NCBI GenBank assembly: GCA_015056385.1
Contig: SVGI01000008.1
Span: forward strand, 1-42,173
Direction of reading: 5' to 3'
Origin: Clostridiales bacterium
GTDB taxonomy: Bacteria > Bacillota > Clostridia > HGM11327
Length of the DNA stretch: 42,173 nt
Shown: in pieces, positions 26,836 to 36,139 of the stretch
How the letters are laid out: each line of letters opens with the position of its first letter
How positions within the stretch are numbered: position 1 is the first letter of the stretch
Program-made: the position numbers and the translations under genes
Notes under the pieces: model-generated
What the model saw: the letters and a program-made list of their open reading frames with translations, nothing else
Databases searched by the model: none
Told to the model about the DNA's origin: nothing

Positions 26836-27696
26836 ATGGGTTTCTTTCAAAATATCATTCACTATATAGAGCCGTATTTGAGGTTTCCGGATATTATATT
26901 TAATATTCTGGATATCGTTATTCTTACGTTTTTGATATACAAGCTCTTGAAGTTTATATTCAAAACAACGGCAGAGCAGGTTCTTAAGGGTCTTGCCATA
27001 GTTCTTGTTGTAACCTGGATAACAAGCCTGCTTGGGTTGACAACAATAAACTGGATACTAAAAAACGCCTTAAGCGTAGGTGTAATTGCCATAATAATTC
27101 TCTTCCAGCCGGAGCTTAGAAGAGGCCTTGAAAAGTTCGGCAGAAAATCCATTGTAGGGCTGTTTGTGTTCAAAACACCTGAAATAGAGGTGCCTACAGC
27201 GGTGAATGACATTGTTTCTGTTGCGCAGGAGCTTTCAAGGCAGCGCCTGGGTGCTATAATAGTTATAGAAAAGGTTACAGGCCTTCAGGAGTATATCGAA
27301 AGAAGTATTCCTATTGACGGCGTACTTTCCGAGGAATTGCTGCTTAACATATTTACTCATAATGCCCCCTTGCACGATGGCGCTGTTATCGTAAGAGGGA
27401 ACAGGATTGTTGCTGCAGGCTGCGTTTTACCGTTAACACAAAATCCCTTCCTGTCAAGCCAGCTTGGTACAAGGCACAGGGCAGCTATTGGTATAACCGA
27501 GGTTACAGATGCGCTTTCAGTAGTCGTATCCGAGGAAACGGGTTATATTTCTATTGTTGAAAACGGAAAAATATTCAGGAATATAGATGCAGATCGTTTG
27601 CGCAACAAGCTGACAGAGGTATTCCAGCCTAAGACCGTAGAAAAGAAAACCTTTATTACAACTGTGAAGGAGAAGCTTAACCGTGGAACAAAATAA
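26836..27696 (+). CDS. cdaA: Diadenylate cyclase CdaA
   Basis: Membrane-bound synthase of the second messenger c-di-AMP. 286 residues. Three N-terminal membrane segments lie at about 21-40, 52-70 and 76-92, then the DAC domain with the catalytic DGA (181-183, in LHDGAVIV) and RHR (213-215, in GTRHRAAIG). It is followed by cdaR, which starts inside its 3' end (14-base overlap). The usual third gene, glmM, is not next but lies about 1.8 kb further on as an XRE fusion. Confidence 0.97.
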   Translation: MGFFQNIIHYIEPYLRFPDIIFNILDIVILTFLIYKLLKFIFKTTAEQVLKGLAIVLVVTWITSLLGLTTINWILKNALSVGVIAIIILFQPELRRGLEKFGRKSIVGLFVFKTPEIEVPTAVNDIVSVAQELSRQRLGAIIVIEKVTGLQEYIERSIPIDGVLSEELLLNIFTHNAPLHDGAVIVRGNRIVAAGCVLPLTQNPFLSSQLGTRHRAAIGITEVTDALSVVVSEETGYISIVENGKIFRNIDADRLRNKLTEVFQPKTVEKKTFITTVKEKLNRGTK

Positions 27697-28930
27697 TTCA
27701 AAATTTTCCTTCAGAGCTCTTGCTCATTCCAAAGTATTGATTATTATATTTTCACTTATAATTTCGCTCATTCTTTGGTATATGGCAACGTCCCAAAATC
27801 AAACGCCAATATCCCGTATATACGATAATGTTGCAATAGAAATTCTCAACGAGGACCTTCTTGCAGAGCGTTCTCTTGCGATAAAGGCCGTTTCATCAGA
27901 TAATACAGACGTTACACTGGGAGGTCTGTACAGTGATTTGAGAAATATTGATTCTAAAATGCTCGTTGCTCAGATAGACGTAGGCCGTGTTATAACCTCA
28001 GGTGAATATTCCTTCGTACCCAAGGTATCTAATTTACAGGACGGTGTTTCTGTTGTGTCATCAGGCGCAATTAACGTTGTTATTGAAAGAGTAGTTACAA
28101 AAAACGTTCATCTTAATGTTGAAATCACAGGTACAGTAGCTAACGGACGCCATTTGATGCGTGATATGATCGAGTATACCGAGGAGGTTACTATAAGGGC
28201 GCCGAAATCTGTTTGCGATACTATCGTGCAGGCGAATGCCACGGTAGATGTTTCAGGAATGCAGAATTCGTATTTTATATCAGCAGGAATAACCTTTGCA
28301 GATAAAACCGGAAAGGCTGTGGACTCCTCGCTTTTTACGGCGGATTCATCTGATATAACGGTTTATGTACCGATTTTCTCAGAAAAGGAGGTTCCCATAG
28401 ATTACGAATCTAATATAGTAGGGAATCCTGCAAACGGTTATTTCATTTCCGGAATAAGCGCTTTGCCTGACAAAATTGTGTTGTACGGCGAACCGTCAAT
28501 TCTTGAGAATATTGAATCTATTCCTGTATCCCGTATTGATATAGCCTCTGTTACTCAGGATGTTGATATGGATGTAAACGTGCTTTTGCCTGACGGTGTA
28601 TACTTAAAGCCGGGTCAGAGAGATACCGTAAACATTCTTATTAGAATTGACAAGATGGTTACACATACGGTTACTGTTAGCACTATTACCTTGCTTAATA
28701 CTCCCTTTGGTGTAACGGTGGAGCAGGCAATTCCCTTTTCTATGGATATAACGGTTAGGGCAAGCCAGAAGGTTATAGAGAACATCAAACCGGAGGATAT
28801 AATTGTTTACGTGGACCTTTACAATGCAACTGTTGGAACGGGCTGGTATAACATAAAGGAAATTAAATTACCTGAGGGCGTGGAGCTTATTTCACAGTCA
28901 GGGGATAAGGTTGAATTTATAATTTCATAA
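27683..28930 (+). CDS. cdaR: CdaA regulator CdaR (YbbR-domain protein)
   Basis: 415 residues from a GTG start overlapping cdaA, with GAAGGAGAAG just upstream. One N-terminal membrane segment (about 17-35) is followed by several extracytoplasmic YbbR repeats, recognisable by their repeated VxVxxVxxxNVHLNV- and VxVRAxxxV-type strands. Known CdaR proteins modulate CdaA activity at the membrane. A Gfo/Idh/MocA oxidoreductase begins 11 bases downstream, so it probably belongs to the same transcript. Confidence 0.93.
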   Translation: MEQNNSKFSFRALAHSKVLIIIFSLIISLILWYMATSQNQTPISRIYDNVAIEILNEDLLAERSLAIKAVSSDNTDVTLGGLYSDLRNIDSKMLVAQIDVGRVITSGEYSFVPKVSNLQDGVSVVSSGAINVVIERVVTKNVHLNVEITGTVANGRHLMRDMIEYTEEVTIRAPKSVCDTIVQANATVDVSGMQNSYFISAGITFADKTGKAVDSSLFTADSSDITVYVPIFSEKEVPIDYESNIVGNPANGYFISGISALPDKIVLYGEPSILENIESIPVSRIDIASVTQDVDMDVNVLLPDGVYLKPGQRDTVNILIRIDKMVTHTVTVSTITLLNTPFGVTVEQAIPFSMDITVRASQKVIENIKPEDIIVYVDLYNATVGTGWYNIKEIKLPEGVELISQSGDKVEFIIS

Positions 28931-30366: not shown

Positions 30367-30721
30367 ATTTCTTCACTTATATAGGATTTTTAACAACAGA
30401 GAATTGGTTTTCAGACGTGATTCGTTTATACAGTTAACCATAAACCTACATGAATGTATTTAAGAACGAATATCTTGCTGCTTTATGAAGCGTTGGTTTT
30501 TGCTGTTTTCCTAAAAATGCTAAAAACGTTATTTTGTATTGACGCAGAATAGTTTACTTGATGTTGTTTTTTATTATTTGGTATAATTTACTTAAAAACG
30601 GAAATCAATACGGGTGATTAGCAACCTGCGGTTGCGTGTTTTTGTAATTGAAGTTGGTTGACATCTGTGCATACATTGCTTAAAATCAGCATAGTTTTCA
30701 ATTATGAAAGGCGGTTTTTAT
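30367..30721 (+). promoter_or_regulatory. Long leader/intergenic region before the XRE-glmM fusion
   Basis: No gene is visible in about 350 bases. It holds two candidate promoters. Distal: TTGATG (30558-30563), 18 bases, TATAAT (30582-30587). Proximal: TTGACA (30658-30663), 17 bases, TAAAAT (30681-30686). Between them, GCAACC (30621-30626) and GGTTGC (30630-30635) form a small hairpin followed by GTGTTTTTG, which could attenuate the distal transcript. Confidence 0.6.
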
Positions 30722-32344
30722 ATGACTCTTGGAGAAAAAATATCTAACCTTCGTTCGAATGCGGGTCTTACACAGCAAGAGCTTGCAGAAAAGGTCAATG
30801 TTTCACGTCAATCTGTTTCAAAATGGGAAATGAATATAGCGCTACCTCAAATAGACAAGGTTCTGACGCTTTGTGAATTATTCAATATTTCTACCGATGA
30901 GTTATTATATGACAAAATTGAGGTAAATATAAATAGCGAATCTAAAAATCAGAGATTAAGGTACTTTGGTACTGACGGCTTCAGAGGTGAGGCAAACATA
31001 AACCTTACCTCCCTTCAGGCGTATAAAGTCGGCAGATTTTTAGGATGGTATTTTTCTTCTGCGCTATCGGGATGCAGCGAGCCTAACTATCGACCTCGCA
31101 TTGTTATAGGTAAAGATACCAGGCGTTCAAGCTATATGATCGAATACTCTATTGTAGCAGGTATTACCGCCTCGGGCGCAGATGCGTATATGCTACACGT
31201 AACCACAACGCCAAGTGTTTCCTATGTTATCTGTCATGATGAATTTGATTGCGGTATTATGATTACTGCCTCACACAATCCTTTCTATGACAACGGTATT
31301 AAGGTAATCAACCGCTACGGTGAAAAATTAAACGATGAAACAACGTTATTAATTGAGGACTACCTCGACAATGATCTAAAGGCGCTTGGTGTATCGGGTA
31401 ACGACTTGCCACTTGCTACAAGAAACAAAATCGGTTGTATTGTGGATTATGTATCAGGTAGAAATCGATATTTAGGTTATCTTATTTCTCTTGCTTCAAA
31501 CTCATACAGAAAGCTGAGAATTGGTCTGGACTGCGCTAACGGTGCATCCTGGATGATAGCAAAAAACGTATTCAGCGCAATAGGTGCACAAACCTATGTG
31601 ATAGGAAATGAACCCGACGGTCTTAATATAAATCGGGATTGTGGATCAACACATATTGAAAATCTCTGCAATTTAGTCAAGGAAAAACACCTGGATATGG
31701 GATTTTCCTTTGATGGAGATGCGGACAGATGTATAGCTGTCGATGAAAAGGGAAATGTGGTAGACGGAGATGCTATTCTGTATATTTTGGCAAAACGCCT
31801 AAAAAACAGAGGAATGTTAACTGATAATACCGTTGTTTCAACGATTATGTCTAACAGCGGCCTTATTTCTTCCTTAAAGGAAATAGGTATTAAGTGTGAG
31901 CAAACAGCCGTTGGCGACCGCTTTGTTTATGAATGCATGCAAAAGAACGATTATTCGTTAGGTGGTGAGCAGTCGGGTCATATCATAATTAAAAAATACG
32001 CTACAACGGGGGACGGTATTTTAACGTCGATTATGTTAGCCGAAGAGGTTTGTGATTCAAAGCTCTCTCTTTCTGAGCTTAAAAAGCCCATTAGGCTTTA
32101 TCCGCAAAAAATAAAGAACATTCGTGTAACGGATAAGGAGGCTGTTTTAGTTGATGAGGCCGTTTTGGCATCAAAGGCGGCAATCGAAACACTTATTAAC
32201 GGTAACGGCAGAGTTTTACTTCGCAAAAGCGGTACAGAGCCTGTAATCCGCATAATGATTGAGGCAGACAGTCAAGAGCTGTGTAACGAATATATAGATT
32301 TAATTACGAATGTTATAATTGAAAGAGGGTACTTACATGAATAA
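30722..32344 (+). CDS. glmM: XRE helix-turn-helix domain fused to phosphoglucosamine mutase (GlmM)
   Basis: 540 residues in a single uninterrupted frame. ATG 30722 is preferred to ATG 30704 because AGGCGG lies 8 bases before it. Residues 4-62 are a complete XRE/HTH_3 domain (TQQELAEKVNVSRQSVSKWE at 17-36). Residues 80-535 are a complete GlmM that converts glucosamine-6-P to glucosamine-1-P for UDP-GlcNAc. It begins YFGTDGFRG, with phosphoserine loop TASHNP (Ser184), metal loop DGDADR (331-336), sugar loop GGEQSGH (414-420) and phosphate loop RKSGTEP (501-507). All catalytic motifs are intact. The next gene overlaps its end by 8 bases. The fusion suggests an enzyme that senses flux and binds DNA, but that is inference; the catalytic part could also be a related hexosephosphate mutase. 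Confidence 0.93.
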   Translation: MTLGEKISNLRSNAGLTQQELAEKVNVSRQSVSKWEMNIALPQIDKVLTLCELFNISTDELLYDKIEVNINSESKNQRLRYFGTDGFRGEANINLTSLQAYKVGRFLGWYFSSALSGCSEPNYRPRIVIGKDTRRSSYMIEYSIVAGITASGADAYMLHVTTTPSVSYVICHDEFDCGIMITASHNPFYDNGIKVINRYGEKLNDETTLLIEDYLDNDLKALGVSGNDLPLATRNKIGCIVDYVSGRNRYLGYLISLASNSYRKLRIGLDCANGASWMIAKNVFSAIGAQTYVIGNEPDGLNINRDCGSTHIENLCNLVKEKHLDMGFSFDGDADRCIAVDEKGNVVDGDAILYILAKRLKNRGMLTDNTVVSTIMSNSGLISSLKEIGIKCEQTAVGDRFVYECMQKNDYSLGGEQSGHIIIKKYATTGDGILTSIMLAEEVCDSKLSLSELKKPIRLYPQKIKNIRVTDKEAVLVDEAVLASKAAIETLINGNGRVLLRKSGTEPVIRIMIEADSQELCNEYIDLITNVIIERGYLHE

Positions 32345-32999
32345 ACAGGTCAGGACAAGTGAGCTTTTCAGCTGTACCACAGAATATCTTGTTTCCCTTT
32401 TTGATTCCTGCGAATATCCCTGGGAAATGCTTCCGAAGATCAACGATTATATTATTTCCGTTATAAAAAATGGGATAACAGGGTATATAACGTATTCCGA
32501 TAATGTACTTATCGGTGAGAACGTTAAGATATATCCTACCGCTACTATTGAGGGACCCGCCATCATAGGGTCTAACTCCGAGGTTCGTCCGGGCGCGTTT
32601 ATTAGAGGAAATGTTATAACGGGTGAAAATTGTGTGCTTGGAAACTCCAGCGAATTTAAGAACTGTATTTTATTAAAAAATGTTCAAGCACCGCACTATA
32701 ATTATGTGGGCGACTCAGTATTGGGAAATTTCTGCCACTTGGGCGCCGCGACCGTTTGTTCAAATCTAAAGTCCGATAAAAAAGCTGTTGTTATACACGG
32801 GGACGAGGATTACAATACAGGTCTTCGCAAGGTTGGAGCAATTCTTGCAGATTATGCCGACGTAGGATCGGGCTGTGTTCTGAATCCGGGTACAGTTATC
32901 GGCAGGAACACGTCTGTATATCCAGGAAATACCTTGAGGGGTGTATTTCCTGGTGGAAGTATAATAAAATCAATGAGTAATATTGTAATCAAAAGATAG
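32337..32999 (+). CDS. Left-handed beta-helix acyltransferase, GlmU C-terminal-like
   Basis: 220 residues starting at ATG 32337 inside the end of the fusion gene (overlap 8 bases), with AGAGGG just upstream. After about 50 helical residues it consists of hexapeptide repeats (about 55-205: IGENVKIYPTATIEG, IGSNSEVRPGAFIRG, and so on). The stretch HYNYVGDSVLGNFCHLGA resembles the acetyl-CoA-binding region of GlmU (HLxYIGDAxIGxxxNIGAG). The GlmU pyrophosphorylase domain is absent. It is therefore either a stand-alone glucosamine-1-phosphate acetyltransferase working next to GlmM, or another sugar acyltransferase. Followed by a strong terminator, so the unit is bicistronic. Confidence 0.85.
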   Translation: MNKQVRTSELFSCTTEYLVSLFDSCEYPWEMLPKINDYIISVIKNGITGYITYSDNVLIGENVKIYPTATIEGPAIIGSNSEVRPGAFIRGNVITGENCVLGNSSEFKNCILLKNVQAPHYNYVGDSVLGNFCHLGAATVCSNLKSDKKAVVIHGDEDYNTGLRKVGAILADYADVGSGCVLNPGTVIGRNTSVYPGNTLRGVFPGGSIIKSMSNIVIKR

Positions 33000-34533: not shown

Positions 34534-34594
34534 ATTTTACCTCCGCATATTGTTTTCGGTAGTATTCTGTGTATTTTTTCAAAATATAAACATG

Positions 34595-34623
34595 GAATAT
34601 TTTGAGCAGCAAAAAAATATATT
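34595..34623 (+). promoter_or_regulatory. Weak sigma-E-like site upstream of spoIVA
   Basis: GAATATT (34595-34601), 14 bases, then AATATATT (34616-34623), resembles the sigma-E pattern (ATATT, then CATACAAT) with about three mismatches in the -10. It is reported because spoIVA is a known sigma-E target. Confidence 0.22.
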
Positions 34624-34660
34624 TGTTTGTGTAACGAGGATAATCAAGGGAGGGATTTTT

Positions 34661-36139
34661 GTGGATTATAATAAGATTTATGATGATATTACAAAAAGAA
34701 CGGGCTCTGAGCTTTATATAGGCGTTGTGGGGCCTGTAAGAACGGGAAAATCGGCGTTTATAAAGAGGTTTTCGGAATTATATATTTTACCCGGAATCGA
34801 CGAAAATTACAGCAAAGAACGCCTTTTGGATGAGCTGCCTCAAAGCGGTGCAGGCAGAATGATAATGACGAGTCAGATGAAGTTTGTGCCTGAAAAAGCC
34901 GTACGTATTAACCTGTGCGATAAGATAAATGTTAAGGTAAGGCTTATCGATTGTGTCGGATACCCAATAGAGGGTGTATCAGGGCGTACGGAAAACGGTA
35001 TGCCCAGAATGGTACGTACTCCTTGGTTTGATAAGGAAATATCATTTGATGAAGCGGCGCAGATAGGTACGAAAAAGGTTATAGAAAATCATTCTACAAT
35101 AGGTATTGTAATGACATCAGACGGGACTATAAGCGATATACCCCGCGAAAACTATATCGAGGCGGAGGAAAGGGCAGTAAAGGAATTAAAGGCAATAGGG
35201 AAGCCCTTTGCAGTTGTTATAAACAGTAAAACTCCTATGTCAAACCAAGCCTATCAGCTCAGGGACGAGCTTGAAATGAAATATAATGCCCCTGTACATA
35301 CCATAGATGTTTTGAATATGGATGAAAACGATATTTCATCTGTTTTCAGTGATATTTTATACGAATTTCCTGTAAAGACGTATAAGTTTAATATACCCGA
35401 ATGGATATTCACCCTGGAAAAAGAGCATTGGCTTTTTAAGGAAATGGTAAGCATTGCATCAGCCTCTGCCGATTCCATAGCACGAATAAAGGACGTAAAC
35501 ACGTTTTCTGAAGGTACAATAGAAAATAATTATTTGGATTTTTTCCGTGTAACAAGTGTAGATATGGGGGAGGGCGCAATACACGCAGAAATAAAAACAA
35601 AGCCCGAGGTGTTATATAAAATACTGTCGGAGCGTTGCGGATGTGAGGTTAATAATGATTATGAGCTTTTCTCTGTATTAAAGGATTATTCTGCTATTAA
35701 AACAGATTATGAAAGAATTCTTCCTGCGTTAAAAAGCGCCAGAAGCGGCGGTTATGGGGCGATTCAGCCTATACAAACAGAAATGACGTTGGATGAACCG
35801 GAGCTTATAAAGCAGGGAAACAGATTCGGTGTGAAATTTCAGGCAAGCGCCCCGTCTCTGCATATATTAAGGGCCGATATAAAAACTATTGTTTCACCTA
35901 TCATAGGCGCAGAAAAGCAGTGTGAGGAGCTGTTGGATAAAATGGTAGATGAATTTGCAACGGATCCAAGCAAGCTTTGGCAAACGGATATATTTGGAAA
36001 ATCCCTCTATGAGCTTGTCAATGAGGGATTGTCAAATAAGCTTTCCGTAATGCCTGATGATGTAAGCTTCAAAATGCAGGAGGCATTTCAAAGGATAATA
36101 AATGAAGGCTCTGACGGAGTAGTATGCATTATATTGTGA
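34661..36139 (+). CDS. spoIVA: Stage IV sporulation protein A
   Basis: Cytoskeletal ATPase that forms the basement layer of the spore coat on the forespore outer membrane. GTG 34661, with AAGGGAGGG (34647-34655) upstream, gives 492 residues, the same length as the Bacillus protein. Walker A is GPVRTGKS (24-31), followed by IDCVGYPIEG and VMTSDGTI. The C-terminal SDGVVCIIL is the conserved end needed for localisation in the family. It converges on rsmI with a 6-base gap. Confidence 0.97.
   Translation: MDYNKIYDDITKRTGSELYIGVVGPVRTGKSAFIKRFSELYILPGIDENYSKERLLDELPQSGAGRMIMTSQMKFVPEKAVRINLCDKINVKVRLIDCVGYPIEGVSGRTENGMPRMVRTPWFDKEISFDEAAQIGTKKVIENHSTIGIVMTSDGTISDIPRENYIEAEERAVKELKAIGKPFAVVINSKTPMSNQAYQLRDELEMKYNAPVHTIDVLNMDENDISSVFSDILYEFPVKTYKFNIPEWIFTLEKEHWLFKEMVSIASASADSIARIKDVNTFSEGTIENNYLDFFRVTSVDMGEGAIHAEIKTKPEVLYKILSERCGCEVNNDYELFSVLKDYSAIKTDYERILPALKSARSGGYGAIQPIQTEMTLDEPELIKQGNRFGVKFQASAPSLHILRADIKTIVSPIIGAEKQCEELLDKMVDEFATDPSKLWQTDIFGKSLYELVNEGLSNKLSVMPDDVSFKMQEAFQRIINEGSDGVVCIIL

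Follow-up and report, generated by a model that had tools for sequence, protein, structure and literature searches.

In E. coli, NadR, PutA and BirA are named as trigger enzymes with a DNA-binding domain in a passage of PMC8249747 that cites Commichau and Stulke 2008, and PutA is described as a single-target regulator (PMC8249747). BzdR, in which an XRE helix-turn-helix (HTH) is joined to a shikimate-kinase-like domain, controls benzoate genes; no kinase activity was detectable for its C-terminal domain, and Q1, a chimera in which the enzyme is active, is synthetic (PMC3602430). The GlmM enzymes of B. subtilis and S. aureus are encoded in a dacA/ybbR/glmM operon (PMC6368335; PDB 7ojr, 6gyz, 7olh).

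Here, a fusion of an XRE HTH to GlmM is described in a window of 42,173 nucleotides (the whole stretch of DNA that was analysed) from a Clostridiales bacterium. Similar to NadR, PutA and BirA, XRE-GlmM unites by its anatomy a metabolic enzyme and a DNA-binding regulator in one polypeptide, with the difference that the enzyme is GlmM, which acts at a cell-wall precursor step, and that the system is known from sequence alone. With BzdR and Q1 it shares an N-terminal XRE HTH, a linker and a C-terminal enzyme fold. Unlike BzdR, it keeps intact catalytic motifs and is the only GlmM in the assembly, hence it resembles a natural form of Q1. The BzdR pattern, in which catalysis is lost and the enzyme domain serves as an effector-binding domain, does not describe XRE-GlmM, whose catalytic motifs are retained. 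The GlmM fold and catalytic motifs are those of the B. subtilis and S. aureus enzymes, the latter being a dimer, whereas these lack an HTH and are encoded with dacA and ybbR, unlike the fused glmM. Finally, standalone XRE regulators with the recognition helix RQA[VI][ST][KR]WE, one of which (L155) is encoded in the same genome, have a similar helix and the same palindrome upstream, without an enzyme domain. A literature search that lay outside most subscription journals turned up neither an XRE-GlmM fusion nor this palindrome. The gene, the parts of its product and the gene that follows are:

30722..32344, plus strand: XRE-GlmM fusion gene, 540 aa plus stop (Pfam, NCBIfam, alignment of 64 distinct fused proteins)
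30731..30907, plus strand: XRE HTH, residues 4-62, recognition helix at about residues 28-36 (SRQSVSKWE) (Pfam HTH_19/HTH_3, invariant residues, AlphaFold2)
30908..30958, plus strand: poorly conserved linker without internal Met, residues 63-79 (column entropy, pLDDT)
30959..32317, plus strand: complete phosphoglucosamine mutase, residues 80-532 (TIGR01455, 486.8 bits; solved GlmM relatives)
32337..32999, plus strand: left-handed beta-helix acetyltransferase-like gene, 220 aa, GlmU C-terminal-like, overlapping the glmM stop (profile matches)

The 540-aa product is thus a single protein made of an XRE HTH, a 17-residue linker and a complete GlmM. The reading frame is open to the stop at 32344 from either ATG 30704 or ATG 30722; a Shine-Dalgarno-like AAAGGCGG lies upstream of ATG 30722, and the start that follows from this codon, M(T/K)(I/L)GEK, is conserved in the fused family. 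Pfam HTH_19 matches residues 4-62 and HTH_3 residues 10-61 (E 3e-13, 49.9 bits versus a cut-off of 23), all four PGM_PMM domains are detected by Pfam, and the NCBIfam glmM score of 486.8 bits exceeds the curated cut-off of 447.55. The catalytic loops TASHNP, DGDAD, GEQSGH and RKSGTEP are all found, in alignment columns that are mostly invariant. In the AlphaFold2 model (36-sequence alignment, mean pLDDT 89.8), the HTH is predicted with confidence (block pLDDT 82-92) as five helices of the XRE/Cro-C1 type (3-13, 18-25, 29-36, 44-54 and 58-62), residues 71-76 of the flexible linker fall below 50, and the remainder adopts a GlmM fold; the best structural matches are the GlmM enzymes of B. subtilis, B. 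anthracis and S. aureus (7ojr, 3pdk, 6gyz), and the closest solved HTH by sequence is 7t8i, an Xre-family protein of ICEBs1. Across the 64 aligned fused proteins, HTH residues R11, Q18, R29, Q30, S33, W35, E36, P42, F54 and D59 are invariant, and mean column entropy, uncorrected for kinship, is 2.68 bits in the linker, 1.11 in the HTH and 0.87 in GlmM. The first-pass annotation had read this frame as a complete XRE domain (4-62) and a complete GlmM with all four catalytic loops, which is confirmed.

The fusion is common to 64 distinct proteins from metagenome-assembled genomes (MAGs) of gut Clostridia and Bacilli, 56-76% identical to the window protein. A survey of 391 genomes from this class recovers the full-length fusion in 14, its own included, with 70-77% identity across the first 228 residues. 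In a scan of named genome contigs, from which the best 80 loci were kept, about 53 encode the full-length fusion at 56-76% identity; these are labelled Clostridia, Oscillospiraceae, Erysipelotrichaceae, Bacillales or Bacilli and come mostly from ruminant-gut MAGs, MAG contigs making up most of the loci compared. Such recurrence means that the fusion is neither a chance event nor a frame error, and the joining of two genes by a frame error, named in the first-pass annotation as a possible refutation, is ruled out by its presence in 64 distinct proteins. The fusion is restricted to some lineages, since among 399 genomes sampled evenly across the phylum it was present in its own genome and in no other.

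A tree built from the GlmM part places 64 of the 65 fused proteins in one well-supported group (SH-aLRT 99), which also holds five unfused members (L042, L043, L102, L106 and L107); L108 takes no firm position. Six gains or losses of the HTH are needed on this tree, four of them forced by well-supported branches, and a single clade of all fused proteins is not rejected by the AU test (p 0.2). A single gain of the HTH followed by several losses is the simplest reading of this pattern, which falls short of proof.

The fused protein also appears to be the sole copy of the enzyme in most of these bacteria. A single protein scores above the TIGR01455 cut-off in 21 of 22 genomes of the fusion group, a count which includes two unfused close relatives (G152 and G290). 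The exception, G393, encodes a second, ordinary GlmM beside its fused one (L081), whose palindrome is degenerate (8/10), and partial second copies below the cut-off occur in G218 and G290. The first-pass annotation had asked whether the genome holds a second, unfused GlmM: by TIGR01455, none is seen in the 1.45 Mb assembly, which is 84.6% complete.

The acetyltransferase-like gene that overlaps the glmM stop adjoins the fused glmM at 46 of the 53 fused loci. Among 11 genomes of the fusion group, no GlmU scores above its cut-off, and in the window's own genome a separate GlmU N-terminal half with the motif LAAGRGKRL is encoded elsewhere (G000 C65, L205). Because this separate half coexists with a GlmU C-terminal-like gene after glmM, the sequences suggest a split GlmU, with the product of 32337-32999 as its acetyltransferase half. 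A UDPGP-type pyrophosphorylase (PF01704) was also sought, and no match scored above the cut-off.

Upstream, cdaA and cdaR, for c-di-AMP synthesis, are located at 26836-28930 of the window, 2-4 kb before the fused glmM. They are followed by a Gfo/Idh/MocA gene in place of the usual glmM, and cdaR is set apart from the fused glmM by this gene, by a tRNA and by a separate promoter-like site; the cdaA-cdaR-glmM order, with glmM directly after cdaR, is not the arrangement of the window. A conserved link to cdaA is ruled out, as cdaA lies near the fused glmM in only 1 of 53 other loci, in opposite orientation, and cdaR in none of them. The leader is longer than the 350 bases first given, with 398 bases separating the end of the tRNA (30323) from the ATG. 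Further downstream, spoIVA (34538-36139; TIGR02836, 648.9 bits) points to spore-forming ancestors of this MAG, whose genome is small.

Within the leader, four elements are of concern here:

30558..30587, plus strand: possible second, upstream promoter TTGATG-18-TATAAT (scan, about chance level)
30621..30635, no strand: O1, palindrome GCAACCTGCGGTTGC, predicted operator (sole perfect match in the window; 49/64 versus 0/45)
30643..30657, no strand: O2, weak second site TGTAATTGAAGTTGG, right half abutting the -35 box (automatic element search)
30658..30686, plus strand: sigma-A-like promoter TTGACA-17-TAAAAT (promoter scan; aligned loci alike)

A perfect GCAACY-NNN-RGTTGC is found within 300 bp upstream of 49 of the 64 fused genes, a palindrome which was spotted by eye in side-by-side upstream regions and then counted on the same sequences, versus none of the 45 close relatives without the fusion, for which 330 bp were searched and which include the five HTH-less members. 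These five (L042, L043, L102, L106 and L107), which lack both HTH and palindrome, are natural controls. The association of palindrome and fused HTH (Fisher 6e-18, uncorrected for kinship) comes down to about 4 comparisons that are independent once well-supported branches alone are counted, and nearly all of these agree (sign test 0.125). After dinucleotide shuffling of the regions upstream of the fused genes, an average of 0.01 sequences hold a site, and about 742 kb of fused-gene loci contain only 51 perfect matches to GCAAC-N5-GTTGC. The window has no perfect match besides O1, and allowing two mismatches returns 9 matches versus 14.8 in shuffles, hence the perfect site alone is meaningful. 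The suggestion that the protein acts on its own promoter, in the region 30540-30720, gains from this a predicted operator (30621-30635) inside that region.

A second GTTG element was found automatically in 36 of the 49 loci, in 33 of them 22-24 bp past the O1 half-site. In Clostridia this O2 is a weaker copy, 22-24 bp downstream of O1 and abutting the -35 box; in the window the match is good in its right half only. The main promoter of the window (-35 box at 30658-30663, -10 box at 30681-30686) is one of 2 promoter-like sites versus a shuffle mean of 1.4, and its 17-nt spacer recurs in 28 of 39 aligned loci, many of which have -10 boxes near consensus and moderate to good -35 boxes. In most Clostridia, the position of the -10 box gives estimated centres near -43 and -65 for the two sites. 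In the Bacilli L094-L097, O1 follows the -10 box and precedes the start codon, and 14 of 16 Bacilli members carry a diverged 16-bp palindrome, GTAAA-N6-TTNAC (0.13 in shuffles), a pattern defined after inspection of those same sequences.

Copies of the palindrome elsewhere bear on both its nature and its reach. About 45-110 bp before standalone XRE genes that encode the recognition helix RQA[VI][ST][KR]WE, the palindrome recurs (L155, L156, L159, L163), with perfect intergenic copies in G000 C60 (L155), G001 C6, G037 C6 and G392 C145. By sequence, this ties the palindrome to the class of HTH with such a recognition helix, and GCAAC-N5-GTTGC may be a general autoregulatory operator of that class. 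Perfect sites were searched in 17 genomes (14 non-self sites examined) and one-mismatch sites in 5 genomes: most of the other perfect sites examined and nearly all one-mismatch sites are inside coding genes, and the few intergenic non-self sites comprise those before these four XRE genes, a single site in G037 (L162) and a small number with one mismatch. One of the latter lies 113 bp before metK (L170, G391 C15, near position 49262) and could be due to chance. The control of other envelope genes, put forward in the first-pass annotation, is not supported by these positions, since sites elsewhere in the genomes checked are nearly all intragenic or before unrelated XRE genes, and the same holds for a wider envelope regulon. 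Because most other genomic sites fall in coding genes, the protein has one likely target, its own promoter, and hence the operon of glmM and the acetyltransferase-like gene.

The palindrome could be read as an RNA hairpin, an attenuator or terminator, rather than an operator: in the window, GTGTTTTTGT comes after the palindrome, this copy was called terminator-like, and a promoter-like site lies upstream of it. This is very improbable. Positions 6 and 10 of O1 are always Y and R (49/49 each) and combine freely (C-G 14, T-G 14, C-A 12, T-A 9), which favours a DNA site read by a protein over an RNA stem; C-A would occupy the closing positions in 12 of 49 sites, without covariation between positions 6 and 10. 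Moreover, the sequence after most copies is rich in A rather than in T, the main promoter of Clostridia is downstream of the palindrome, and the palindrome also precedes unrelated XRE genes. Its presence there raises the question of whether it serves a different regulator, for instance a standalone XRE protein of the same class, with the fused HTH a passive structural or protein-contact extension. XRE proteins with a similar recognition helix coexist with the same palindrome in these genomes, so that cross-binding is possible, and the HTH is missing from some relatives. We nevertheless consider a passive HTH improbable, as the palindrome tracks the fused HTH (49/64 versus 0/45) and the recognition helix stays invariant in the 64 fused proteins.

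If the HTH does act at O1 and O2, the sign of its action has to be weighed. Lambda cI activates at PRM, and an activator of this type would sit near -43/-65, where the sites of Clostridia are centred; with O2 directly abutting the -35 hexamer and O1 22-24 bp further upstream, the protein might activate its own promoter. This is unlikely, although less so than a passive HTH. The many near-consensus -10 boxes and moderate to good -35 boxes leave no obvious need for an activator. Repression is favoured because O1 of the Bacilli L094-L097 is placed after the -10 box and ahead of the start codon, where a repressor would sit, and because repression is the usual role of standalone XRE regulators of this kind.

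Taken together, the fusion is probably a self-regulating, or trigger, enzyme, a working GlmM that is also a local regulator and would repress its own operon. The fused protein would be the cell's working GlmM, converting GlcN-6-P to GlcN-1-P. Its XRE domains, we infer, would be paired through the GlmM dimer to bind the O1 palindrome GCAACY-NNN-RGTTGC and, in Clostridia, also the weaker O2, about two helical turns downstream and abutting the -35 box. The promoter would most likely be repressed once GlmM is sufficient, leading to a homeostatic supply of UDP-GlcNAc precursor. Such control by the HTH would be dispensable, as the HTH is missing in some close relatives. Active-site occupancy or the phosphoserine state may tune DNA binding via the linker, and the analogy with trigger enzymes (PMC8249747) and with the work on BzdR (PMC3602430) makes sensing of either plausible. 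A fuller version of this analogy, in which GlmM, an essential enzyme of peptidoglycan-precursor synthesis, reads its substrate or phosphoserine state, the linker relays it to the XRE domain and flux thereby sets transcription of glmM and the acetyltransferase gene, would make the fusion a one-protein flux sensor for cell-wall supply, an idea which we put forward tentatively and regard as doubtful.

The predicted operator is defined well enough for immediate testing, with the HTH-less members as natural controls. The stage of an intact enzyme bearing a DNA-binding domain had to be built artificially to study the evolution of enzymes into regulators (PMC3602430); XRE-GlmM, if the proposal is true, would be a natural, intact and apparently sole-copy enzyme with a fused DNA-binding domain. 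The supply of UDP-GlcNAc precursor in these gut bacteria would then be controlled by GlmM itself.
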